In this document: piece by piece, positions 4,290-57,074 of the stretch
Layout of the letters: the number at the start of each line of letters is the position of its first letter
How positions within the stretch are numbered: the stretch's first letter is position 1
Assembly: GCF_020382885.2 (NCBI RefSeq)
Contig: NC_058501.1
Span: 16,382,501-16,446,500, forward strand
Reading direction: 5' to 3'
DNA: 64,000 nt
From: Scatophagus argus
Taxonomy: Eukaryota > Chordata > Actinopteri > Scatophagidae
The notes under the pieces: model-generated
Database searches by the model: none
What the model was told of the DNA's origin: nothing
Seen by the model: only the letters and a program-made list of their open reading frames with translations
Made by a program: the position numbers and the translations under genes

Positions 4290-7200
4290 ACCATTAATGT
4301 GCAGTGGAAACAGCTACATGATCGGTCTTGTTACCTGGAAAGATCAGCATTAGCATGCAGGGGCAAATAAAATTTCAAGGTGTGTTACGTTATCATAAAC
4401 AATACTGTCTTAAGGCAAGAAGTGGAAGTTAGAGAAAAAGAAAAAGAAAAACAAGCGAACAAAGAAACGTATGTTCATGGAGAAACAACTGAAACTCAAT
4501 CAAATAGAAGTTTATATAAAATCAAAATGATTGTAACGTCAGAAGTCATAAGTAAATTATTATCTATCTATGCTCATATCATGATCCACCTGCTGACCAT
4601 TTGCACTGTTTACCTCACCTACTTTGCACTACTTCCACTCTATACTACCTCACTTTTGCACTACCTCCAGAACCATATTTATTTTACTTACCTTATTTTA
4701 TTTTGTTTTACTTTATTCTATTCTATTTTATTTTATTCTATTATTATATGTTACTCGTTCTTACGTTTTTATGTATGCACCAATCACTAAGACAAATTCC
4801 TAGTAATGTGAAACCTCTTCACTTACATGGCAATAAAGACAATTCTGATTCTGATACTTCATAAGTACAATGTGAAATGTGACAGAACACTACATTTAAC
4901 TAATGACACAATATTTATACTGTGATTCAACTAGCGAGGACCCTCAAGGCTGTTATCACTTGTCCCCATTTATTTTTGCCGACATCATAACGACACCGTC
5001 TCTCCTAACTAAGCAGAAAGCGCCGCAGCAGCAGGGTACCTTGAGCACTGTAAAAGCTGACTGGATGAGCCCAGGGTCAGCGCCTCTCCATATGACCTGA
5101 TTTCCCATGAGCACGTGCCACACGAGTTGACGAAACTCAGCAACCCCGAGGACCTGCAGAACAAATCAGAGTGTCACATACTGCAGCTCACACATATGGG
5201 AATCTATGATGTTCACAGATGTGTCCATATGGTTCTTCTTTTCTGTCCTACAGTTAGTACATCATTTTTTTCTGATTTTGTTTTCTGTATTATTATATTT
5301 TTCTTTTTCTATACATGTTGCACAGCCCTCTAGTAGTCTTACTTTGTCACCTTTGCTCAGGTGGTTGCGGTTATTTTATATCTACTAAAGGAGCCAAACA
5401 TTGTGCCAAGGGCAACACCCTGAAGAAGGCTGTTTGTCACCAAGCTTGTTTTTTAACATGTATTGCCATGTGAAGAAAGACTTCTCTACTTTTTTCCTTG
5501 AAGCATGCCTTGGATTTTTCTCTTTTTTGAACTTTTATATTCCCCACCAAAGAGCACCTTCATCGACACTTTTTGGAATTTTTGAGCACTCTGGACTTTT
5601 TTTCTATGAGATTAATACCATAAAGCTGTAAAATTGTGCAAACCGCCTCTAATGAAACCACGTGATTCAGCTTTTGTATCTCCTTAACTCTTATTACAGT
5701 TAACACAATTATGGACAAAAGTTCAAGAAAATTACCTGTCTCAAATGCCTGAGTGACCTAAATTTTGGACCAGGTAATTCATCTAAATTCGCATCATCAC
5801 ACAGTAAGTGGTGGCCCAGCTCGCTCTCTGATTGGTGCCGCTGTGACTTTGAAGCGCCGCCTTCTGCTCCTTCCCAGCAGCTCATTTCCTCCTCTTGCTC
5901 TTTTGAAAACAGAGACAGAAATAGCGATGACCAAACGTCTCCAAACTGAGGTTCATTGCAAAAGTGGGGAAATTCCACAGGAAATTATTACAAAGTACTG
6001 ACTCTAATATCACACACATATAGAGTGTGATGTACACATGTTGCTATCCAGCTCCTATTTCCAAAACAACAACCAATAGTGTACCATCCCACCTCTCACC
6101 TATGATTAATTTCAATCCCATTCCTAAAAAAAATCCAATAACACAAACCAGCAGATAACCAAACAACTTTCCCTGTAATCAGTATATGCAAAACAACCAT
6201 TTGCACAAATTGGAATTTTTTTTTTTTCAATTTGTTTTGTGAATCACACTGCAGTTGTTATTCTGAAAAATGCCACAGAAATAAAGTTATTTTACTTACA
6301 ATATTAATATAGAGGAATAAAGAAAATTCCACAACCTAAGACCTAGGGACTGGTAAATATTAAAATCTTTTAATCATATTTTAAATCTTGACTAAAATTG
6401 TGTAAACTCTTACTGGAAAGGAAGTTCATTTGAGCACCATGGTTAAGTGAATCGCTTTGCTTTTCCAGGCAGAATGTTTTCGTACTGTCTGACCTGGTGA
6501 ATCAGACTGAAACAGGAGGATTTTTTTTGCATTGTGATCACATATCTGCTGCTATCATCCTCCATCAAGAGGCCTAACCTTGTCTGGTGGGTGAGACATG
6601 ATGAAGCACTGTCCAAGTATGCTTTCCATACTGTGACAGGTTTTGCATCACTGGAAATTTTATGAGCTACAGTTTTTTCCCCAGTTACGGGCTTGAACAA
6701 GTGTTGGATGGTCAAACACAACAGTTTCATGACAGAATGCTGTTTTGTTTTTTTTGTTTTTTGTTTTTCTTTTAAATCTTGTTCGATTCAGGACAAAATG
6801 TCTACCTGTCTGTCTCTCTATGAGTACCAGTGTGTCCTCCGTGGGAGCTCCCTCCAGCAGCTTCTCTGTAAGACGACTCCCACAGGCCTTCAGCAGCCTG
6901 CAGACAATGTGAAAACACACACCCATATATCAAGTTGAGCGATTACATGAAAAAAGTCAGCACCTTGTGTTTCACAATGGGGCTGATAGTCTCACCAGCT
7001 AAAGGAGGAGTGCAGACTGGCCCAGAGGTTGGGGTGCTGGGTAAGAGAAGTTAGTGATCGGGCTGCATTGCCACTCCTTTGGTGTGGGAAAACTGCAGGT
7101 GAGAAGACACTGTTCATCCTCACTGCTCGCTGGGGACAAACTCCTTGTTCATTGTCAAACACCTGATGGGCAGTAGAGCACAAAGACATTAGGTAAACTA

Positions 7201-8116
7201 CTAGATAAGTGCCTGTGGTATACATCTTCATGTTTCTGAATAAAGGCATGCAATGGTCACAGGTGTACCCTACCTTGAGGGCTGTGCTTTGCAGGCTCTG
7301 TATAGTGAGTCTAAGGTGGCGTAACAGAAAAGGCCAGGAGTTGATAAGGTAGATCCTGTCCATTGCTACCATGACGATACTGTACCAGCGCTGGAAACCC
7401 CTGGCCAGGCTGTCTTTGATGAAGAAAGTGTGTGAGAACACAAAACCGTGTTGCTCGTCTCCAAAGAAAATTGGCCCTTCGCGGCCAGGACACACCTGAC
7501 AGAGCAGACAGAGAGAAAATCGGTGGCGGCAGTGGAATAAGAACAGCGGTCAAGTTCATTCGATGCATAAGAAGATGTGTGACTCACACACACATACATG
7601 CAGACGTACGTCACTGTTTACCTCACAACTGAGGCTGCGTACACAGGCCTGGCGAACCACGCTGAACAGCTGTGACTGTCTGGGATGCTGGTGGCTCAGG
7701 AAGCGTATGCCTGTTTCATCATCAATGCTTACAAAGCCCGGGTGAGATGCAGGAAGAGATCGACATCCCTATGAGAAAAGGAGAAAAGGAAAATGAGTAC
7801 AGCTAGCAGGACTATTAACGCAATGTGCAGTAAAAACAGGAAAGTTTCTGGAAAGCTCATGGTGAGTTGACATTCTGTCCTGGGTCTGTCGCCTTCCACT
7901 CACGTCACACATTTCTCCCCTCTGTGTGGCCGAGCTGTTGGCCCTCATGGTCAGCCCTTCACTTTCCCGGTCACCATCGCGGTCCCTGTCCCCAGGCACT
8001 GGGGCGCCTGCCTGGGATGAAGGGGACGGGGATGGAGGGTGCAGTGCCTCAGTGCAAAACAACGTCCGAGGACCATGGAGCTCACAGAAGTGACAGAGAG
8101 CAACCAGAGCATTCAT
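2687..8116 (-). CDS. flcn: Folliculin, 11 coding exons
   Basis: Folliculin forms a complex with FNIP1/2 on lysosomes, acts as a GTPase-activating protein for RagC/D, and so controls mTORC1 phosphorylation of TFEB/TFE3. Coding exons, 5' to 3': 8116-7904, 7768-7622, 7495-7274, 7162-6996, 6897-6806, 5899-5736, 5153-5040, 3868-3745, 3619-3494, 3102-3000, 2894-2687. They join in frame to 559 aa (human is 579). The protein begins [20 protein letters not shown], typical of the family. The longin half includes [20 protein letters not shown] and [13 protein letters not shown]152 in LARGF aligns with the arginine finger (human R164). The C-terminal DENN half includes [20 protein letters not shown] and ends near [18 protein letters not shown]. 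The acidic linker (about residues 270-325) is shorter than in human. An AG acceptor directly precedes the ATG, so the 5' UTR is spliced. The gene is head-to-head with leng9. Confidence 0.96.
4206..4284. repeat. (TC)n(CA)n microsatellite
   Basis: A TC tract of about 27 bases runs directly into an uninterrupted CA tract of about 52 bases. It lies in the flcn intron between the exons at 5153-5040 and 3868-3745. The pure run suggests it is polymorphic. Confidence 0.95.
4546..4856 (+). mobile_element. LINE (L2-like) 3' tail, TTCTGA-ended
   Basis: T-rich sequence with repeated TTGCACTA-type words and a TTTTATT-rich stretch is followed by GGCAATAAAGACAATTCTGA and a second TTCTGA-type unit. This is the usual shape of 5'-truncated teleost L2-type LINE ends. 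No reverse-transcriptase reading frame is left. It sits in an flcn intron, antisense to the gene. Family name is from memory of the consensus. Confidence 0.6.
5390..5640 (+). repeat. Possible retroelement fragment
   Basis: The segment contains CCTGAAGAAGGCTGTTTGTC followed by T-rich sequence and ATAAAGCTGTAAAA, resembling the CCTGAAGAAGGC-type 3' ends of dispersed fish retroelements. It lies in an flcn intron. The match is by eye only. Confidence 0.25.
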
Positions 8117-9105: not shown

Positions 9106-12100
9106 ATGGCATCAGGTATATCAGTAATGCCCGCACTTCCGTCAGAGGACCGGAGAGACGGTGAGACCCACTTGACAGACACATCCAGTCCAGAGACAGG
9201 AGTCCCCGCTGAGCCTGATAGTGGCAAAGACACAGCGGGTAAATCACCGTGATACGTTTTACACATTTATTTGCTGCATGTAAAAACTGTCCTCAGAGGT
9301 TATCAGTTCATTTGACACATATTATATAGCTACAGGTAATTCATTGTTATGTTCAGTTTAGACCTCCTAGTAGGTAATATTACTAAAATCAGTCTGAATC
9401 TTTTGTAAGTAATCGACTCTGTAATCACATTCCTCAACCTGTATTTCATTTCTGTGTTACTGTGACCAACCTGAGTTCCAGTAAAGTTTTGGTTATGTTT
9501 TTATGTCACTGCTGCCGTGTATCTTAAAATGAGGGGGCTGAATGGTTGACCGGCAACGTTTATTCACAGAGATGCTTGGTTGCCCTGCTGGAATTGTGTC
9601 AGGAGTCAGGAAGTGAGTCAAGAGCTGTAATTTAATAGCTCTGATCCCTGTGATGACAGGAAGATTCACTGTTTGCATTACTGTCCTCTATCTCACTGGA
9701 ATCAAGCCTCCTTTCCAAAGAATAAAGAATTTAGTTTTTACTATTTTACTCAGTTACTTCCTGTCATTCGCAGTTGAAAGACTGCACTCTTCCAGTGCTA
9801 TCTCAGTGGACAGGAAGATGGCTAATAATTAAAAGATTCGAGCAGTGAGTCACATCCAGTTGTCTATTTGGAAATATCATTGACAGGTGTTGGGCATGTT
9901 TTTGAGTTTACAGACAGCCACGTTCCAAACTACTTGCCCGACGTTTGAGTCATCTTGGTCGAGCCATTTCCACCTGTTCAATGATTTATACTTTTTGGAC
10001 ATATATTAGAGAGGAAATATAGTCTCATACAAACATTCACCACTACCAGTTTCATCTTGGGAATTAATCACTTACAGTATTTATAATTTGAATTGTTAAC
10101 TGCCAAATCAGACCCCCCTTGAGATAGGGATCAGATGGTATCTAGTGAAAAGAGACATTTAATTTGTTGTCCAACACTCTGAGGACAGGCACTCAGGGTT
10201 CATATTCCCTGACGTCTGTGCATTTCTGTGCATTTGGCAGGGTGGACTTTCTTTTGTAGCTGTATCCTTTCAGACTCTCAGTGTCTGGATAGAGTCAGGC
10301 TGTTATGTGATCATGTTTGTGGATGTTTTACTTCGTGAACTTTGTATTATTTGACCTGGAAGAGACCTACGGTGCATCAGAGAATTATGAGGCAGACAGC
10401 TCAAAATTTGTAATCATCTGTTGAGTGAGCACATCAAAATGGTCTGGTCTAGTCCTCTTTTCCTCCCTTATGAGGACTTGTATATAGCTGGATATTGTAC
10501 TGTGTTTACTGTACTTTGTAAATTGTTAATTTATTTTACCTTTATATTCTTTTGTAACTGTTTTTGCACACTTTTTGCACTCTTTTTCTGTTCTTGTGAG
10601 CTGCCACGACAAGTGAATTTCCCCACTGCGGGATCAATAAAGTTCATCTTATCTTATCAAAAGTCATTGCTGTGTTGCTCAAACTTCATTTAAACGTCTG
10701 CTCAGTGTCATCACACTGTGTGGCTCACCTTCTCTTTGTCTTTTTCTGACAGGGTCAGCAGAACAGAGTGAGGATGGAGTTGATGTCTGCCAGTTTTACC
10801 TAAAGGGAAAGTGTCATTTTGGCCACAGATGTCGTTTGTCTCACAGGTCTGCTCGCATCCTCTTCTTCAGCTAACTCACCAACAGGATAAATTCTGACTT
10901 AATTTCCTAGTTAGACTCATTTATTTTTTAGCAACTGCAACACTGAATGTTGTGTTTTGAGTTATTGTAGCTAACATTAACAGAACTGAAAAAATGTGAA
11001 TCTGTTCGTTAATTTAATAAATTGCTAAATTTAACCTCCTGCAGCAAATTCTTCAGAAGTGTTGTTTTGGAAAGTGAGAAGTATAATGTGTGTAATTTTT
11101 TATTTCTCTTGCTGTCAATTACCGCTCATATTGACCATCAGAGAGAGAGTGATTCTTGGCCATGACTAAATATGGATACTCAGACATGCTCCACGAAACT
11201 ATGTCAAATGGAATTTGGACTTATCATTTTGTGTCATTTCTCACACTCTTCATAATTTTTTCCTCTCCTGTTCTTCTCTTTACTTAGTGACCCGTCAGTA
11301 GGTGATTCAGGGGTCGCATCTCCTGAGCAGGATGACAAACCACAAGGAGAAAAAATAGAAAAACACAAGAAGAAAGCGAACAAAGCAACGAAACAAAAAT
11401 ACGAGGCAAAAGGTCACTCCGCGTTTAGCTGGTTTCCTTTATTTCAACACACTCTTAAGACGCTGGTGGCCCTATGCTAACACTTTTTTTTTTTTTCCCA
11501 CTCTCCCTCAGATGTGAACAAAAAGCCTCGGATGCGCACAGCAGATGATGTTATCTCTCGAATCCTGTGGGACCCATCAGTAGATGCTTCAGAGTTTGTT
11601 GTGGGGTATGTGGATCGCTTCCTTGGTGTTCTGGAGCGTCCCTTCATTGACTTCAACTGGGACACCAACCCTTGCGACTGCGATTACTCTACTGAGCTGG
11701 CCCTGCCCAGACACAGGATCCAGTACTTCACCTACAGAGGGCACCGCGTCTGGGACCGCCACACCAGAACTGACAGGGTGTTTGGCTCCACCGGTCAATC
11801 TCTGGCTCCCCCCTTTGGAGGGGAGGAGGAAGTAAAGGGTGAGACATGACCCTCTTTTGCTGCCTCACTTTACTCTACATACACAAAATTTACAAAAGCC
11901 AGAACAGTGCACACAATTTACACTCACCAAATATAATCATTTATTTCACAAGGAATAAATCCAACGGACCAAGACCAACAACAAGACCTTAAAACAACAG
12001 AAGAGCAGCCCCCTGCTCTCTGTGGGCAGAAGGAGAGTGAAACAGAGAAGTGTATTCACAACCAAAACCCACATCTGGAGGAAGGGAACCCAAATGAGAT

Positions 12101-13865
12101 GAATATTCACACCCCTGACTCAGCACAACCAGCTCCAAAGTGTAGAGAAAACACTTCTCGGGAACAACAGGAATCGCGAGGAGCATGTGTTGCAGAGGAG
12201 GCTACAATTAGGTCTGATGTTCACATTCATCCTTCAGATTTAACTAAAAAGAGATAAATCCTGTACAGAACAGAATGGTACATGTTCTTTACTCAGCCTG
12301 TTTATTCAATACAAAATGCCAACTTTAAATCACAGGGTTGCAGCTTTCACAAGACTGCAGAGTGAAACAGAACGGAGCTGCAAGCTGTTGGTTGGTTCTC
12401 AGATCGACTAATGGACGACTATTTTTATAATCAAATAAACAAAAAAATGTGATGCAGTTCTTTGTCTTAGACGACAGTGAACTGGATATCTTTAGACTCT
12501 GTCTGGTCAGACAAAACAAGACTGTTGAAAAGAAGAAGTCCTGTGGGCAAGTTGAATGGGCATTTTTCACAGTTTTCAGACCGTATTAATTGAGAAAATA
12601 ATCAGTAGATCAAAATCAAATCAAAATAAGCATAAATTTCAGCCCTGAAACAATATGATTGAGAAGAGAGTGATTTAATTCATATCCTTCTCATTTGGTT
12701 GGATTGAGCGTAGCTTCGCGAATACAGTGTCGCAGTCAGAGCTGTAGAGGACTGGACGATGGAGAAATGAATACATTAATCCTTCACCACGCTCTTGAAG
12801 AAGTGTGAACAAGGTTTTTGGCAAATAAGATTAAATAGCACACCGCTGACCCCAAGGCCCAGTGTGTTTCTGTATGGTTGGCAGATTAGCACGACAAGTC
12901 ATTTTATACTTAGGAAACTGTAGGTTGTGTGAGCTGGAAAGCAGTCTTGAAACATACTCTCTTTTGTCTCTGTTTTGTCATTTTACTCACCTGTTCTGAT
13001 TTCAGACCTGAGGCTTCAACAGACCAAATGTCCTTGTCCCAGAAAATGGGAACCAGCGTAAAAGAGGAGGCTGATGAAGAGGCGGAGTGGCAAGAAAGCT
13101 GGGAGGGCAACAAAGATACTGTGGTGGGTACAGGGCAGCTCTCCCCTGAACTACAGTCTCCTGCTATTACTGTTTGAGTTTAATGTGTCTTTTTTTTATA
13201 CGCAGAGTTATCATGGAGCCCTGAGCATCAGCCAGAGTTGTTCACCGCTGGAGCAGAGAGAGGAGAAGCGTGGTGGGCGCCCCCCTAAGAAAAAACCCAC
13301 TCACTTCATCACCTTCAGAGCCAACACTCCTGCTATCCTCTCCTGTTTCCAGCAGCTGCAGGATGAAATCACATCCCTTCTGCCATCCTCTGCCCCTCAC
13401 TGGCAGACCTCCACCCGCCTTCATGTCACCCTGTGCCTCCTGGTCCTTGCTGGCCCAGCTGAGGTAGCCGCCGCCGGGGAGATCCTCCGGCGGTTTGCCC
13501 AGTTGGATCGTAATCCCCCGGTGGCTGTGACCTTCCCTGTGAAGTTGAAACATTTCAATGGGAGGGTGCTTTATCTGAGCCCCCAGCCTCAGCTACCCCT
13601 CCAGCAGCTCAACAGCGGCCTGCAGACGGCCTACAGGGAGAAGGGCTGGCTCCACAGGGACTCCTACAACCCACGCTACCACCTCACACTGGCCAAGATA
13701 GAGAACATGGAGGAAGAGAGGATTTTTGAAGGGGTGGGGGACCTGAAGGTGGGGAAGGGTTTGAATTTTGGCCGCTTGCCAGTAAACACCTTGCACCTTT
13801 GTGCCATGGGCGGTGCCAAAGTAGATGGTTTTTATGAGACTTTATGCACGGTAACTCTTCGTTGA
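9106..13865 (+). CDS. leng9: LENG9-like CCCH / MJ1316 / 2H phosphoesterase protein
   Basis: Orthologue of leukocyte receptor cluster member 9. Exons 9106-9238, 10753-10846, 11288-11412, 11512-11838, 11953-12211, 13006-13123 and 13206-13865 join in frame to 571 aa. Residues 57-75 form a CCCH zinc finger (C57, C65, C71, H75; C-x7-C-x5-C-x3-H). A Lys-rich stretch follows (about 97-116). Residues about 123-212 are an MJ1316 (DUF504) domain with VISRILWD, VVGYVDRF and LPRHRIQYFTYRGHRVWDR, a family proposed to recognise cyclic-phosphate RNA ends. An acidic, Gln-rich linker (about 215-350) leads to a C-terminal AKAP7/2'-5' ligase-like 2H phosphoesterase with both HxT motifs, H425-V-T427 and H511-L-T513. 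Together these suggest RNA-end recognition and processing; no activity is shown by sequence alone. Donors of exons 2, 3 and 5 begin GTC, which is unusual. Confidence 0.92.
9239..10752 (+). other. leng9 intron 1
   Basis: The longest leng9 intron but one holding nothing coding. Its 3' part carries a LINE 3' tail (10460-10660). Around 9844-9860 there is a TGAGTCA-containing word resembling the 25-base repeats at 33336 and 36995. Confidence 0.7.
10460..10662 (+). mobile_element. LINE (L2-like) 3' tail, ATCTT-ended
   Basis: Contains GCCACGACAAGTGAATTTCC and CGGGATCAATAAAGTTCATC, then ATCTTATCTTATC. This is a very characteristic 3' end of teleost L2-type LINEs with a terminal ATCTT tandem. No coding remnant is visible. 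It is in leng9 intron 1, in the sense orientation. Confidence 0.75.
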
Positions 13866-20491: not shown

Positions 20492-23400
20492 ATGGCTGCC
20501 ATGACAACGGTGCCCAGCTATACCCCATCGCTGTGGGTGAGAGTGTGTCACGCCCTCCCCCGGCTGGACCTCTCCATGCAGATGAAGGACAACATCTTTG
20601 TCCCCGACAGCTGGGAGTACCAGCAGGTAACAGACACCTGCCGCAGCCACTCATAGCACACTGTAACCACATGCTGTACTGTAGCTGTCCAATCTGTGGG
20701 GCCACGTTGCATAATAATTACAGCCCTGTTGCTCAATTTGTACTTAGAAATGTATAGGTATGTTGCACAATTAAGTAACTAGATCTTTAGCTCTACATCA
20801 CTCTATAAATTTCTCTTTAAACCCCTGAATGTAACAAGGACCTGCACGATGGCATTTGAAATCCATTTAAAACCCATATCATGAAGTTTTATTGACCCAA
20901 TTATTGGTGAATAAATTGCACCAAACCCTAGCAAGAGCCTCTCAGCTCACATCTTATCTTTTCCTACCTTGCTTTAGCTGCTTTAATGCTTTTTTAAAAA
21001 AATCTGTCACTTACACCTCTGCCTCTGTGCATGCAAAGTGGAGACATTTCACGCAATTTGGTTCCAGGCAGTGCATGAGATTCAACAGTCTTCTAGCAGG
21101 TTTCCACTGCCGCTATTGTGTGTATCGGTGTGAACTGTGCAGTTTCTGCTGCAACATGCAAAGGTCTCATCCTTCTCTTCCAGCAGGCTCTGTCATACAA
21201 AGCACTTCGGCTAGCAGAGTCTCACAGTGCGTGTTTGTGACTTCTCTGCGGTACAAAAGGGGTTGGGGGGGGGGGACGCAAATTATCCTGCAGAACAGAA
21301 AGACAAAAGAGACTGAAAGTGCTCCGAGAGAGGGAATGAGTAATGCGAGGAGGTAGCTGAACAGAAGACCAGGCAGAGAGACTGAGAGAGAGAGAGAGAG
21401 AGACAGAGAGAGATGAGAGTGGGAGTGAGAGAGAGTGGCAGTGAATGTATTTAAGTAGGTCACAGATTATTAATAGAGATTCAGTGGCGTGGATAGAAAG
21501 GAGGAGAGGGGAGAGAAAGAGAGTGGGAGCGTGGGGAAAGAGGGCTGGGTTGAGTGGGGCGATGGGGAGGGGCTTCGGCGAACAGGAGGTGAGATAGAGA
21601 GAAGGTGGAGGAATGGGGAGTGACAGACGGACAGATGGATGAAGGATAATACTGTAGATATGTGTGGAGGCAGAAATGCATCTCAGTAATGTTGACTTTC
21701 TGATGTGATCAAAGTCTGATATGGCTTAGTGACGTTATTATTAACTGCGGTTCAAATAAAGATCTGGGATTGATGGGTTAAGCCTTTGAAATAAGTATAA
21801 ATGGTCAAGAAGCAGCTTGAATTATGTGCTAAATTCATCTTTTTATAAATGTGTGTTTGCATGTAGTTGCGTATCTGTATCTCTGATATTTCTTACTGTC
21901 TCTGTGAAGGGCTTAATTTATATTCTCATACCTTTTTAATCACCATCTCCTGCTGCTAATGGGGGCGGGACAATATGACAAGCTATGGAATTTAATAAGA
22001 TTAGTTGGTATTTTACCCTTTCAAATTGCTCTTCTCCACTTGTAGAAATGGAATTAAAAGTGCCATCTCTCACATTCACTGACTCATCCTCTGATTTTTT
22101 TTCTCCCTCCTCCTCTTCTTCCTCCTCCTCCTCGTCTTCTTCCTTCTTTCAGACTCTGCTGGTTTTGTCCAGTTTATCAGCTATCGCTCTTGTTATCTCC
22201 CTCCTGGTGGTTCTCTCCTTCCTCATACACTACTGCTGCTGTCACCGTGGCGATCGGAGCGAGGGATCGGAGGAGGAGGAGGAGGATGAAGATGCCAGCA
22301 CAGGTCACGGTTACAGCGGGAAGAAGGGGCGGGGCATCTGCTGTGTCACGTGGGTGGCGGTGGCAGCTGTCACGCTGTGCTGGTGAGGAGGAGGATTCAG
22401 ACGTCATTATCACCTACAGAGCTCTTAAAGTTTATGGCAACACACACAAGTCGCCTTTCAGCAGTGATGGATGAAATATTCAGATTTTTGTTCTAGTAAA
22501 AGTACCACTGCAGTACAGAAGTGGAATCAGCAAGATGTAAAGTATTACTTGGTACTGGTGACTAAATACTAGTTGCACATTATGAGTTACAAAACTCTTG
22601 ATGAGCTTTCTGCAGATGAGTCCATAATAATACACTCTTAATTTTGATACTTAAACTTCTCTTTGCTCATACTTGAGTGTAGGACTTGTACTCGTAGTGG
22701 AGGATTTTCTTATTGTGGCGTTGCTGCTTTTAGAAAAAGGATACAGAAGCTACTTCCTCCACTACTCATTATGAGATTGTCTATACTGATGCATTCATTT
22801 TTGGTCAGATTTTGCTGTCATAGCTGAAGTCTAGCAAAGTCTATTTAGCTTCAGACAGATTAGTTGAGTGGTTCCCAACCTAAGGTTCAGTCCCCTCCAG
22901 TGGGTCAACAAGTCAAATCTGAGGGGCTATAAGCAAACGTCTGATAAGCAAATTAATATTCCTTGGAAACTTTGCATTTTTTGCATAATATTGAATTATT
23001 TTACCTAATTTAGCCTGAAGCTGTTTATTGTTGGCCAAAGCCAGGCGAGCTTTCCCCCCCTGTTTACAGTCTTTAGGCTAAAATAACCTAATCTACTGCT
23101 GGTTGTAGGTTCATCAGTCTTCTCATTTAGCCCTCTGCAAGAAACCCAAATAAGCACATTTTCCAAAATGTTCAAACTGTACCCATCACATTTAGCTAAA
23201 GCTGCCAGCAAAAAAACTGGAAACTACTGGTTAATCTTTAAATAAATGCACTTCATTTCACAAACGTATCTTGTGTTTTTCAGGTAGAGTCTTAAACTAA
23301 TTAGTAACTCTGTGTGGCAGATTGTGTTTCGAAAAGTGTGTGTAAAGAAGCTAGAAATACTCATGTAAAATATGTCAAGTTTTACAGGACATTAGTTGAG

Positions 23401-26400
23401 CAAATGAACATAGTTTACTTTATACAGCAACAAGGCTGTGAATCACACGCTGTCACTTTCTCCATCGTCATGTGCTTTTTAGTCTGCCGCTGTCACTGGT
23501 GTCACCGTAGGAAAAACAAAACCATGACAGCTGACGGTCATGTTCTGGTGCTGTTTTCCCGACCACAAGACTATGACAGCACTGTGTGTGTGTGTTCTGT
23601 GGATTTCCCTGTCGTTATCTGTGTGTGTGTGCATGTGTGTGTGTGTTTATGTATGATCTCAGCTTGCCCACCTACAGTACAGTCATTTACCCACTGGTGT
23701 TCCCCTCAGATCTGGTGACCGTGCAGTCATCAAGTCAGTACATTGTCTCCGCTGTACATTATACAGAGATGCTGCCTGTCGTCTGTCCAGCACACTCTCA
23801 TATAGCTCAAGTCACTGAAGGGAAGCTCAGCTGCCTTTTAAATCTAATGCTACAGGCTCAGCTGTTTGCTGTAATAAAATTATAGAGCAATTTAATGCTT
23901 CCACAGTGTCTGCCATTATGCTCCAGTCCATTCCCTTCACGTTCACATGCACTACGACTGTATTGCTATATCACTGAACATAATGTATTGGAGATGTGAT
24001 TTTGGCTGTTGTAATGATGTCATCACAAACAGACTGTAGGTTGATGTGGCTCATGTCTCCCCCTTATGGACCATAATGTGATGTAAAACATAGTCGTCTC
24101 CTCTGCTTCGATGATGCTTAATGCAAGAGTCTTTCTGTGCCAAACATGTTGAAAAAAATAATGCTGCAGTTTACCTCTTGAAAATATTTCATGTGACAGA
24201 CACCCTCTCCTCTGTGGTGGCCTTCAGTCGGAGGAGCAGTCATTTGAAATGCAGCTGCATTAAACAGCGTTCACATTTGGCAGCTTGAAATGCAAAGCAC
24301 ACACAGACGCAGACACACATTCCTCCTTTTTCCCCCTGCTTTCTAATCTGGGTCACATACTTTGTGGGAGATTGGGTCATACCATTCCTCTCGGGTTTGA
24401 GGGGATTTGATGAACATCTGGCCCGAGCCTTAATCTGAATATCTGAATAACAGAAAGATGTGTAAACATGTCGCTATGGTTAACATTCTGAATATTTTCC
24501 TCGCTGAAGCTTAATCACTGAGTGCTGAGAGTCATCCCCCCCCCCCCATCATCTGTTTATTCCTTCCCCTGCACTGCGCTGATGGTATGCCCATCCAGAG
24601 CACACACTTCCCATCCTCTACAGCTCTATCTCCTTGTGTCACATTCATTTAAAATGTACATACACACTGAATTAAACATTACAGTTATGCCTCTGCTATC
24701 TGTTCCTCTATCGTCCTGTCACACACACACACACACACACCCTCCCACAATGTTTCATGTCTCCTTTTTTTTCCCCCTCTTTGCAGTGTTGCCATAGGCA
24801 TCGGTTTCTATGGCAACAGCGAGGCTAATGATGGGATGTATCAGTTGACCTCGTCTCTTCTCACAGCCAATTATACGCTAGCTTCCATCGATCTGCTGGT
24901 GAGTGCTGCGCCACGCAAGTAAACTGTCATGCAGAATATCAGCCCTGCTTGATGCTGTGTGTGTGTGTGTGTGTGTGTGTGTGAGTGAGAGAGAGTGAGG
25001 GAGAGAGAGAGAATCAGATACAAACTTCTGTTTTATCGATTTCCCTGTGGTCAGACAGCGGTTTATGTGTCAGACTGCTAAATGTCCTCATTCTCCTCAG
25101 GAGATGCAGGTCAGCAAAACTACAGTAATATAGGTAATGATACACAGCTGAATACAAGTGGGGAAAAACACAATCTACCATATCAAATGGTGTATCTATC
25201 TTATCAAGGAAACAGACATATCTGACCCTCATAAAGCAGTAGCATTAGACACAGTGCACACAGACTCTGCACAGACTAAAAGCAAAGCAAATGCGGAATA
25301 AAACACATTTGTCGAGAAATGTAGTCCTACTTCAACCTCTAAGATCAGCTCTCTTATTGCATGCCTGGTCAGAGCAGGAATATCTCATAATAGGTGAGGG
25401 TTTACCCCAGCTAAAAGATTACATATATTTATTTCATTCAAAAACCCACAATTTCACTTTCAGCAGTTTGATAAGATGCAGGACCTGAGCTTTAACTTGT
25501 ATTATAGGGACATGCATTAGTGAACTGAGGCACCAACATGCCCACCATCTTCAGCTTTCTATCACCATAACAGAGACCACCACTATTTTATGAGCATCAT
25601 CTTTTCCACTTTGTGGTTTCCATCCCACTTATCTCCCCTCACATTCTTCCTTACTCCCTCCAGATTTCAGATACAATTACTGGGCTGCAGCTGTCTATCT
25701 CTGGCCCTCTGACCTCGATGGAGGAGCTCTTTACCGGCAGCAAACCCTTCCTGGTGTCGACGCGGAACTGCCGGAGGTTATCTGAGAACGTCATCAACCT
25801 CCTCTCCTCCATCTCCCTGGCACGGTCCAGTGTTAATGCAGGCCTGGGGAATGACAGCAGTGTCAGTGGGGCGTCCATCATACCTCTGACCCCAGTACCT
25901 CCCTCTGTGGCTCCGACAGTGGTGCCCAGCGGCGGCTTAATCACCAGCCCCTTCTCACCTGGCTGGGCGGCCAACACACTGATGGTCAATGAGGACTACA
26001 GGTGAGACTGCAGTTTGGATTGTGATTTTTAATTTGCATTTTTTGGATAATTATTAGTAAATTGAGTCATTTCCGGATATCTTGCCCAAGGGTGGTGGTG
26101 GGGGGGGGGGGCATGGCCACAGTTCAGTGCACACAGGCCTGTTTCTGTACGATACAATACACTGCAGTTCAAAGCTGATTCAATATCATTTCTTTCAGCC
26201 GTAATTATAACATTTTATTTTATGGATCTGTAAGTTGTTTCCTGTAAAGAACTACAGAATTTGGCACTAACTGAAAAAACTGAGGACATGAACATGCAAA
26301 AATGTCAAGCTTTCAACCTGCCTTACATGGAAACTGAGGGTTTCCAGTCATAAATGAGGAATGTGCAATATGTGCAATACGCTCTTGGTTTTAACGGGAG

Positions 26401-43011: not shown

Positions 43012-46000
43012 ATGGTAAGTCGGATGGCCGAGCTTATTGCTAAGAGCTAATAGCAGTAGTTGCTAGCTTGATCCGATGTTTGGCTAGCCGTCGCCAGCCG
43101 TCGAGCTTTTGATTTAGGTTGTGTGTACTGGTTGGGAGTCCCCGACGTAGACGTTAATTAAAAAAGCATAATTACTTTTGTATAGTTAAATTCATAAACT
43201 TGTCATTGTAGGTAATGTTAAACTTACTGTATCTGAAATTTCGAAACCACCGAGCAGCTTTAACATGAACGTTACGAGACTGAGGCTAGGCTAGTAACGT
43301 TACTGCTAATGGTAATGATACGGTATTCTAACGTTTAAGTTACCGTCGAATGAATGGTTGTGAACGGGTGCCGCAAATACTCCACTATTGTAGTAGTGTA
43401 ACCTTTCGTGATTGTGTTGATGCCAGACAAGAGTTTTACGTAACGCTACATTACTCGAAGTAAGTTAAAAATTGCTTGAGTTCAATTAGGATACTTGTGT
43501 GGTGTAACGTGACTTACTTTATAGCGCACTCAAAACAACTGAATGTCTGTGTTTACTCGTAAAAGTTAATATGCTTGTGGACATAAACTGAAGAATAACA
43601 ACTGAAGATGAACAGCAACCAAAAATAGAAAGCCACGCAGTATCTGTACGTCAGCAAGAGAAAAAGATACCGTTAAAGAGACTCAATTGATTTTGGTGGT
43701 TATTTTGTGTTAGTCAGTTTTCTGTTATCAGTATAAGTATATATGTGTGTGTGGAAAAACGTTCACTTCCAACCCTCAGACTGTCAGGTTTTATGACCGT
43801 TGAAAAACGGGTGTGAGTTGGCTTTCCAAAGTTGTTTTAGGCGTTTCTGAATAGATACAATCGGTAAGGTAATGGTGTCAGTAAAGCAGTATGACAACAT
43901 TGTCATAATACCCCTGATTTTCCTCTTGTGGCAGACATGTGTTTGTACATATCCCCAACTCATACTGATGAAATCATCTTTCTGTCTGTCTCACAGAACT
44001 CCAATGTGGAGAATTTGCCTCCTCATGTTCTTCGCTTGGTCTACAAAGAGGTTTCAGCTTTGGCAGCAGACCCCCCTGAGGGTATCAAGATTTATCCCAG
44101 TGAGGAAGACATAACCGAACTGCATACTGCCATCGAAGGACCGGGTAAGGATTGCTATGGTGTGATGCCGAGCTGGCATTGGCCATGAAAACAATTAAAA
44201 CATGTTGCATTACTGATTTTAATTTTGGTCTGGTCTGGTCGTTGTGTTTGCATTCATCAAATAAAACATAGCTGCTTGATGGAACTCTTAACAGTACATT
44301 CAACACAGTTAAGTCATCTGTGTTGACTTTTATTCATTGAAGTTTTTGAGAATCCTATACAGCTGAGTGTTTCACATTTCTGTCTATCCATGAGACAGTT
44401 TTTCTTTTATACTCACTCACTTGTCCATAAAAATTTCTGAATCCCTGGTCAAATGGAATTACTGAAAGGTCAGTACAACACATGTGTTTAGACATTTTAT
44501 TGATTGGACATGCAAACTCTCATGTAACAAATCGCATGATTCTTGAGTACGCCATGCATTTTAAAGGTCAGTTAAAATAAGAATAAGATAGCATGCAATT
44601 CATAAAGATTATAATTCTGTCATATCCGCTAAATTAAAAAAAATATATGATCCCATTACTTTTATAATGTCAGTTTTTGATCACTAGCTATAGAACTCCT
44701 CTAAATACTCTAATTACAACTTTGAATTCATGTCGCATATGTTTCATACTAGCTACATGTTACAGTAAGTAGGCTGCCCCACCACTAAGCATCCAGTAAA
44801 ACAGCTGGATAACTATGTGGTAGTGAAGAGAGATTTCAATTTGTGACCAACCTTTTATGATCATCCTCCCGTAATAACAGCTCTTGCCTGTTTGCCTTTC
44901 TCACTTCTGGTGTCTTGTCTGCTCCTCTATATTTAGGTAGGTGATGGTTAACTATCCAAGCTTAAATGTTGAGCTCCCCCACCTCCATGGAGCCACAAGG
45001 CATCAAATTTACAATATAGAAATGATTCTTTTCCATGAGTCCTTGAACACTTATTACATATCATTATAGGCTGTATTTCCGGATTTTGTAGGTTTTGCTG
45101 ATTACACGTGAGACACACAAGTCACTTAAAGCGCACAGCCAGCAGTGTCCATGCTATCCTGAGCTCATTGCCTCAGACTGCTATGGTTAGGTAGGCTTGG
45201 AAGAACTAGGCATCATGATCATCAAATTGATTTATTAGGTACTCATGCTAGTATTGGACAATACATTACAATATGTACTTCTTTTGGCCTGTGGGCCCCC
45301 TGTTAAGTTTCACTTGTATCCCGCCAAGAAGAAAGTTTGGGCACCCCTCAATTAGAGTGTGTGTGACAGTTTTGTCATAAATAAATTTTCTTTTCGTAAG
45401 TTTGAACGAACTGTAGCTGTATGTAAGATTTTCTCTGTGTTTGTTTGTCAGTTGACTTAGTTGCCGCTCTATGACCCTTTTTATGGAGAAAGTTTGGCAC
45501 AGGACATACTGCTCATGAAATGAATTCTTTATGCTTTGACAGAGGGAACTCCATTTGCTGGTGGCGTTTTCCGAATGCGTCTGGTCCTCGGGAAGGACTT
45601 CCCTGCGGTTCCACCCAAGGGGTATTTCCTGACCAAGATTTTTCACCCCAATGTGGGTCACAAGGGAGAGATCTGTGTCAACGTGTTGAAGAGGGACTGG
45701 AAGGCAGAACTCGGCCTCAGACATGTTTTGCTTGTAAGAGGGACCATCAGTCTTTATTGGTCTGAGTATCATCCTGTGTTGCTGCCACTATTTTTACATT
45801 TCCATCTTTTTTTTTTTTTTTTTTTATTTCCCCACAGACAATCAAGTGTCTTCTCATCCATCCGAATCCAGAGTCGGCTCTGAACGAAGAGGCAGGGCGT
45901 TTGCTGTTAGAGGACTATGCAGAATATGAGTCCCGAGCTCGTCTGCTCACAGAGATCCATGCCATGGGCGGGCCTGGTGGGACCTCTGGGACACCACAGG

Positions 46001-46206
46001 ATCCTAATGACGGCCCACAGCCGAAGAAGCACGCAGGGGACCCCGCGAAGAGAGCGGGACCCAGCGCCGCAACCGTCCCAGCAGCTCTGGGTAATGGAGC
46101 AAATGGAGCCAGTACCACCAACAGCAATAGCAACAGTAGTAGTAACACCAATAATGTAGCAGGGAAAAAGAAAGCAGACAAAAAGCGTGCATTGAGGCGA
46201 CTTTAA
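43012..46206 (+). CDS. ube2s: Ubiquitin-conjugating enzyme E2 S
   Basis: UBE2S extends K11-linked ubiquitin chains on substrates of the anaphase-promoting complex. Exons 43012-43014 (ATG only), 43997-44144, 45543-45733 and 45838-46206 join in frame to 236 aa (human 222). After the initiator, [19 protein letters not shown] matches the family N terminus. The UBC fold holds the HPN motif at H85-P86-N87 and the active cysteine C95 in [12 protein letters not shown], the same number as in human. [21 protein letters not shown] follows. The C-terminal tail contains an Asn/Ser-rich segment (about 203-219) not seen in human and ends [12 protein letters not shown], the basic Leu-Arg tail that binds APC/C. 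The start codon is separated from the rest by a 982-base intron. Confidence 0.95.
43015..43996 (+). other. ube2s intron 1
   Basis: Begins GTAAGT immediately after the ATG. Contains several TAACGTTA-like words and a (TG)n-like stretch near 43744. No exon or repeat family is recognised. Confidence 0.6.
44145..45542 (+). other. ube2s intron 2
   Basis: AT-rich intron. The only recognisable element is a possible hAT end at 45280-45350. Confidence 0.6.
45280..45350. mobile_element. Possible hAT-type right end
   Basis: Ends AAGTTTGGGCACCCCTC, the inverse of the GGGGTGCCCAAACTT ends seen in many hAT-type elements. No matching left end was found in this intron, so it would be a fragment. Confidence 0.3.
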
Positions 46207-51569: not shown

Positions 51570-53259
51570 CGGACGCTCGGCCAACACGTTCCGGGTTTGA
51601 TTGTCAACGTGTAAACCCGAGGACAATTCTGGAAATCAAGCAGAACATTCAGAGACAACAGAAGAGAAATTCTCCCAGAGAGAGACAGAAAGAGAACATT
51701 AGTCAGTGGGAGAGCTGCTGCTTTGTGTCTCTCGTTTTTCCTTCGCTGAACCCTCCTCAGAAGGTCAGAGGAGCATGTAACTGAAACAAGTGGAGCCCTC
51801 GGTGATTTCGGCATTCTGTCTCCCCCATCTGTGCCTACATTCTCTGCTACAGATAGGGACGTTTTGATAATTACATATAATTATAATTTCTGTGGGAGAC
51901 AGATCTGCTTCTGTCTATTATTGCCAACACCTCCAACACAATAACTTCACACATTTACATATTTCTCAACAAAAGTGATATTCTTTGAACCTCCGAGACA
52001 AATCAGGAATAATTTTGCTTAGAGAGACATGTCACATGGAGAAGCAATGTGCCATTCAGTTCACGTCTAATTAGTGATACATTTGAATGACACAGGCGAC
52101 TTTTTGTGCCTAAAAGCTGAATAGAGAGCATTTGAAATCAGTGGCGTTTGCCTCATTTCGCGATGTATTTTACAGGCAGGGAGTCATTTCCTTGGTTTGT
52201 GCTTACTCCTGATTTTCAGCTGTTACTGTCTTTTAGCACTTAAGCTGAGCCTCACTCATTATCACCCCTGGCCCAGTCACAGTAACAGTCAGTGCCAGAA
52301 GAGTACTGATGCATATTAAACAATCATAGAAAAGATTCAGGTGAAGTACATGGTGTATCTACTGATATGTGGCTAGAACAAGTTAACATGGAGGAAAGTT
52401 CCTCCTCCAGAGAAACTAAGCAACATCAATAGACCGTGTTGATCAGGAGGTTCAGTCTGTTAATTCCACTGGATTGTGTTACAATGCCAGGAATTGCCAG
52501 ATACATTAAAAGAATTATAGATTTCACGCGTATTTCCAAACAAGAATTGCTTACAGTTTAAATAAGTGCCAATTCTGAATGTATGTAGTGCTAGACTAAA
52601 ACAGGAATCCAGGAATGAACAAAACAGATAAAACTGTTTACATTTGACAAAACACAGGCCATAGACTATCATTCAAGTGCCATGGTCAGCACAGGAATGT
52701 ACAGGACCGCCATATTTTGCTGAAAATAGTTGCTACTAATTTTTACTGGCCTTTGTGGTTACAAATAGTGATTCCATCCAGCAGTACATCAGATTAGTCC
52801 TTTTAGTTCAGTGGGACATGTAGAACAAGGCATTAAAGACTAAAAGCATGAAGATTGTTATGTGCAATTTGTCCTTTATACAAAGATACGTCCATTTTAG
52901 TGTTGTAGACTTGAGAAGCGTTGTTTTTCGAGGGCAAAGGTGGTCTGAGTTCCTCTCTAGCTATAAATTAAAACCATTTGAATGCCATTATCAACAATTA
53001 CTGAAAACTTCCAACTGATTTTGATAGTGGTAGTCCTTTAAAATTACATTATTCCTGACCTTATCTATTAGTACATCATATAAATACTTCAAATTTCATC
53101 ATCCATTATTACTGAATGAAACTACTCATACACCATCAATATCCAGTAGGTAGTACATGCTACTGGAATATTTCACATGCCATTCTAGTGGGTTAAACTG
53201 CAAAAGCGGATACAGTGTTGCAACTGCATTGACTCAACAACAGAAAATAGATCTCTTAG
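51570..53259 (+). other. shisa7 5' intron, possible extra UTR exon at its start
   Basis: The first 200 bases after the acceptor-like GCATTGCAG are purine-rich and could be a non-coding exon; candidate donors (AAG|GTCAGA at 51763, GTAACT at 51778) are weak. The remainder shows nothing recognisable. Confidence 0.35.
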
Positions 53260-53269
53260 TCATGTAAAA

Positions 53270-57074
<3,805 letters not shown>

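Follow-up and report, generated by a model that had tools for sequence, protein, structure and literature searches.

LENG9 (leukocyte receptor cluster member 9), including the chicken LENG9L proteins, carries a CCCH zinc finger, an MJ1316 domain and a two-histidine (2H) phosphoesterase domain in a single chain, the C-terminal 2H domain being taken as part of the definition of LENG9. The same architecture is present in leng9, a gene lying in a 64,000 nucleotide stretch of the Scatophagus argus genome (NC_058501.1, positions 16,382,501 to 16,446,500 of the forward strand), hereafter the window. The fusion is reportedly described by Mazumder et al. in 2002. Its domain names are found in Pfam, and the idea that MJ1316 reads RNA 2',3'-cyclic phosphate ends is a prediction already in print, the sources cited for it being Burroughs and Aravind 2016 and Mazumder et al. 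2002. Hence the architecture is already known and annotated, and the view of a first-pass annotation of this DNA that the system is 'under-described' is fair for its function alone: in the open-licence literature we found no functional test of LENG9 or MJ1316, cyclic-end binding assays included, nor, judging by title, any biochemical assay in 40 of the 41 papers naming LENG9. Added here are a proposal of ring opening in place of resealing, and a structural lead on MJ1316. We put at around 0.5 the probability that LENG9 is an RNA 3'-end phosphoesterase serving RNA turnover, rather than repair.

The other described relatives each resemble part of this chain. Archaeal MJ1316/COG1531 proteins belong to the same Pfam domain family, with a P-x-H-R motif and a W conserved between fish LENG9 and archaea, but they are stand-alone proteins of around 80-90 aa, whereas the fish domain is part of a 571 aa chain; in the archaea sampled, their gene is often beside that of a metallo-beta-lactamase (MBL) fold hydrolase, and not that of a 2H enzyme. 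The central domain of AKAP7 shares the AKAP7_NLS family with LENG9, yet the fish genome carries AKAP7 as a gene of its own. ThpR/LigT proteins (TIGR02258) show a partial profile likeness to the LENG9 2H domain, well below the membership cut-off. Chicken is reported to have eight LENG9-like loci in its MHCY region, five of them pseudogenes (PMC9635633), whereas a single MJ1316 copy was found in the fish genome.

The gene occupies positions 9106-13865 of the window on the plus strand. It had been described as one 571 aa frame; 571 residues are indeed encoded after splicing, but from seven exons with GT-AG introns (1716 bases spliced, stop included) and not from a continuous open reading frame. 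Exon borders were set from the sequence alone. The features are as follows:

9106..9238, plus strand: coding exon 1, with the start codon at 9106 (exon joining)
10753..10846, plus strand: coding exon 2 (exon joining)
10788..10844, plus strand: CCCH zinc finger, residues 57-75, with C57, C65, C71 and H75 (PF18044, 1e-5; residue check)
11288..11412, plus strand: coding exon 3, lysine-rich (exon joining)
11512..11838, plus strand: coding exon 4, containing the entire MJ1316 domain (exon joining)
11532..11759, plus strand: MJ1316 domain, residues 125-200 (Pfam PF04457, 1.4e-26)
11953..12211, plus strand: coding exon 5, linker with no Pfam match (exon joining, Pfam)
13006..13123, plus strand: coding exon 6, linker with no Pfam match (exon joining, Pfam)
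13206..13865, plus strand: coding exon 7 including the stop codon, containing the entire 2H domain (exon joining)
13296..13859, plus strand: 2H phosphoesterase domain (AKAP7_NLS), residues 383-570 (Pfam PF10469, 7.4e-20)
13422..13430, plus strand: catalytic motif 1, H425-V-T427 (motif check)
13680..13688, plus strand: catalytic motif 2, H511-L-T513 (motif check)

A Pfam scan of the 571 aa protein gave 11 matches at E<=1, four above the curated cut-off and seven below. The strongest was MJ1316, which aligned over all 75 positions of its profile (93.4 bits against a cut-off of 26.3), followed by AKAP7_NLS (72.1 against 24.4 bits) and its related family 2_5_RNA_ligase2 (34.7 bits against 27, 2.3e-8); zf-CCCH_4 cleared its cut-off narrowly (25.6 against 24.6 bits), whilst the classical zf-CCCH model PF00642 fell below its own (17.7 against 20.5 bits). 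These results bear out the three domains that had been named from their residues, all of which stand where they were placed: the cysteines and histidine of the finger, HRIQYF and VWDR of MJ1316 (RHRIQYF begins at 184 and VWDR at 197), and the two intact HxT motifs of the 2H domain (HVT at 425 and HLT at 511). The identification of the gene as leng9 is likewise supported by its architecture. When the protein was shuffled in 20,000 rounds, a CCCH of the same spacing arose in 27 and at least two H-h-[ST]-h motifs in 127; the Pfam matches far exceed what such motif counts alone give. Sub-cut-off matches to Torus (21.6 against 29), Corona_NS2A (16.3 against 23), LigT_PEase (15.8 against 23.3) and further CCCH models were set aside.

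That the protein 'processes or reseals' RNA ends had been suggested at the outset. Processing is reasonable; resealing is not, as no ligase catalytic domain of the RtcB, RLIG1 or ATP-grasp type was found among the 11 Pfam matches, and the '2-5 RNA ligase' names that do occur there are labels of 2H families. The only NCBIfam match of the 2H domain at E<=0.01 was TIGR02258, the ThpR/LigT RNA 2',3'-cyclic phosphodiesterases, a partial match over 158 residues (1e-6) whose 28.8 bits fall far short of the 65.7 required, so that the fish domain is a non-member. LigT-type enzymes open the cyclic phosphate ring to a 2'-phosphate. The tRNA ligase RTCB uses RNA fragments with cyclic-phosphate ends and RtcB is described as working via the 3'-phosphate, whilst CNP, a hydrolase of the 2',3'-cyclic phosphate ring, is reported to have an effect on XBP1 splicing opposite to that of RTCA (PMC13247085). 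A 2'-phosphate product would therefore be an unlikely substrate for RtcB, and LigT-like ring opening, taken with the opposition of CNP to RTCA, predicts antagonism of sealing and not repair.

Under the proposed mechanism, single-stranded RNA with a cleaved 3' end would be gripped by the CCCH finger together with the small MJ1316 domain, whereupon the 2H domain would work, metal-free, on the 2',3'-phosphate chemistry at this end, the likeliest reaction being ring opening of the cyclic phosphate. The resulting RNAs would be open to degradation yet closed to sealing by RtcB, such that LENG9 may contribute to RNA turnover once endonucleases (IRE1, for example) have cut, partly during inflammation. 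The observed basis for this is the gene structure, the domains, the catalytic motifs, the single MJ1316 copy, and the presence of two genes of the IRE1 type and one for RtcB; from it we infer RNA binding by each of the domains, the substrate, the direction of the reaction and the biological role.

Profile searches of the 570.7 Mb assembly (48 contigs) found one MJ1316 match, which is leng9 itself, and one RtcB gene. AKAP7_NLS exceeded its cut-off in three genes: leng9, a gene on C19 with exons matching AKAP7 structures, and a gene on C21 with exons matching ASCC1 structures. Two further AKAP7_NLS matches, L022 and L023, fell below the cut-off and were read as open reading frames. It is from this family that the best-surviving, though unlikely, alternative arises, namely that LENG9 is an AKAP7-like 2',5'-phosphodiesterase leaving a 2',3'-cyclic phosphate, with MJ1316 binding the product or a branched end. 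AKAP7_NLS is the best 2H profile, and the AKAP7-type enzymes tested are reported to cleave 2',5' links while sparing 3',5' ones, leaving a cyclic phosphate, as does an oyster relative according to the same authors (PMC8406329). However, a single-sequence search of solved structures with the LENG9 2H domain reached no AKAP7 structure at E<=1, the closest relatives being ms64 of kinetoplastids (5.7e-4) and ASCC1 (7.2e-4); a separate akap7 is retained in the same genome, and the search for RNase L described next found none there.

The RNase-domain profile of RNase L and IRE1 had eight matches in the fish genome. Five fell in two genes, on C2 (L002, L005 and L008) and C16 (L003 and L004), whose exon pieces match solved IRE1, with no RNase L chain among the matches listed; the remaining three were marginal, with L007 and L009 below the cut-off and L006 just above it, having one internal stop and, in its open reading frames as inspected by eye, no IRE1- or RNase L-like exon. 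RNase L was thus not found by this search, a result short of proof of its absence, and an OAS1_C search also gave no match, although it lacked a positive control and says little. OAS genes are reported missing from some teleosts (PMC2852836). The suggested link to RNase L is consequently not supported in this species: RNase L/2-5A was rejected as the context of the fish gene, the strong RNase-domain exons being of the IRE1 type, and the ancestral role of LENG9 is unlikely to have been bound up with RNase L. Fish leng9 would offer a single-gene system, and one free of RNase L if that enzyme is truly absent.

Of the two remaining alternatives, one, itself improbable, holds that LENG9 serves as an RNA-binding adaptor without catalytic activity, its 2H domain being a fossil, as may be so for the AKAP7_NLS proteins of kinetoplastid mitoribosomes; the best solved match of the domain is to ms64, which we take to be such a mitoribosomal protein, but LENG9 keeps the two HxT motifs intact. 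A single-sequence structure model of the 2H domain (pLDDT 36.4) was too poor to show the fold. Least probable is a USB1-like 3'-end trimmer leaving a protective cyclic phosphate that is then held by its own MJ1316 domain: USB1 is reported to be a two-histidine enzyme producing cyclic-phosphate ends (PMC8406329) and MJ1316 joined to 2H in one chain would suit a product reader, but no USB1-type family appeared among the Pfam matches at E<=1.

The preferred reading, a phosphoesterase of RNA turnover, can be set against what is published on immunity. Mouse Leng9 is reported to be enriched in macrophage-related organs and to rise in macrophages at 4 h of lipopolysaccharide (LPS) treatment, sustained for at least 24 h, a pattern common to Zc3h12a and Zc3h12c (PMC2478707). 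Together with the MHCY location of the chicken genes, these data fit a plausible immune RNA-turnover role for LENG9, without amounting to a demonstration. Hence, of the earlier suggestion of RNA repair or antiviral turnover, the immune turnover part remains plausible, whilst repair is disfavoured, no ligase domain having been found. RNase L-made cyclic-phosphate RNA is reported to stimulate RIG-I/MDA5 and NLRP3 signalling (PMC8406329). A more elaborate version, which we regard as quite unlikely in its entirety, would make LENG9 an inflammation-induced eraser of 2',3'-cyclic-phosphate RNA: MJ1316, an Sm-like reader of broken ends common to archaea and animals, would find endonuclease-cut RNA, and opening of the ring to a 2'-phosphate would both remove the RIG-I/NLRP3 danger signal and block resealing by RtcB. 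Three mammalian enzymes observed to alter the supply of cyclic-phosphate ends for RTCB, namely RTCA, CNP and ANGEL2, are named in a 2026 review that makes no mention of LENG9 (PMC13247085); should LENG9 read and open cyclic ends, it would join these three as an additional factor, and one that responds to LPS.

The reading of cyclic ends by MJ1316 had been put forward as a proposal from genome context. The prediction is in print, but the archaeal context examined here adds no strength to it. In a sample of 115 archaeal genomes from one phylum, PF04457 was found in 103, ThpR in 102 and RtcB in 108. Close linkage of MJ1316 was found neither to RtcB, the nearest being 21.7 kb away among the matches listed (53 genomes with both on the same contig), nor to ThpR, the nearest being 57.4 kb away (46 genomes with both on one contig); genomes outside these counts have MJ1316 and its partner on separate contigs, or lack one of the genes. 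In the subset of 44 genomes with all three on contig C1, the nearest RtcB was at 28.7 kb and the nearest ThpR at 176 kb. Archaeal context was accordingly rejected as support for cyclic-end reading. MJ1316 is matched twice in a single archaeal genome (G115), on different contigs, and once in each of the remaining 102 genomes that have it.

What does accompany the archaeal gene is an MBL-fold neighbour, a link already published for COG1531 (PMC9425974). Thirty loci were compared, one per genome, chosen as best-scoring and not at random. A co-directional MBL-fold gene abuts MJ1316 upstream in 22, with MJ1316 abutting or overlapping the end of that gene, which suggests translational coupling; in the other eight, the MBL gene is convergent in two and none is present in six, one of which (L046) is cut by a contig end. 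Genes from eight of the 22 genomes with an upstream MBL gene went into the MBL profile. Eight of ten genes adjoining MJ1316 matched Lactamase_B in Pfam, the others being a methyltransferase and a Toprim protein. Ten further nearby genes included no RtcB, 2H or other RNA-repair family; among them a DEAD helicase and a SepSecS-like enzyme are RNA-related, and one had no match. Among solved structures, the archaeal MBL protein is closest to hydroxyacylglutathione hydrolases, along with other MBL enzymes, so this neighbour is no sign of an RNA role. The MBL link is compatible with a function at RNA ends, but neither proves nor excludes one.

As regards structure, the lead is that MJ1316 may fold as a small, Sm/SspB-like beta barrel. 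No PDB sequence resembled the domain convincingly, the best match being a homeodomain at E 0.061, and Foldseek searches of the PDB and a viral library returned nothing at E<=0.001. The one viral fold hit, an EEP-family protein of a giant virus (Hyperionvirus, BFVD A0A3G5AFW8), has an apparently MJ1316-like fold; if true, this would be a second fusion of MJ1316 to a possible RNA-end enzyme. Protein and alignment scans of viral contigs gave no relatives, and seven viral loci from motif scans were taken as chance, the best match to a local MJ1316 profile (L077) having E 0.0027 over 24 positions.

Around leng9 in the window, Pfam matches on open reading frames reveal exons of folliculin, Tweety, an E2 ubiquitin enzyme and Shisa. 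The last three lie on the same strand as leng9 (21979-26005, 45524-46206 and 53189-57074, respectively), with one piece of each matched; we read them as presumably ttyh1, ube2s and, probably, shisa7. TTYH1, UBE2S and SHISA7 lie near LENG9 on human 19q13.42, a resemblance to the fish neighbours that would support orthology. Architecture and neighbours together fit the gene being the orthologue of vertebrate LENG9. Folliculin (flcn) lies on the minus strand at 6992-8116, head-to-head with leng9 on the plus strand from 9106; with the flcn start codon placed by the expected N-terminus of the protein, the two start codons are around 1 kb apart, and the genes may therefore share a bidirectional promoter region.

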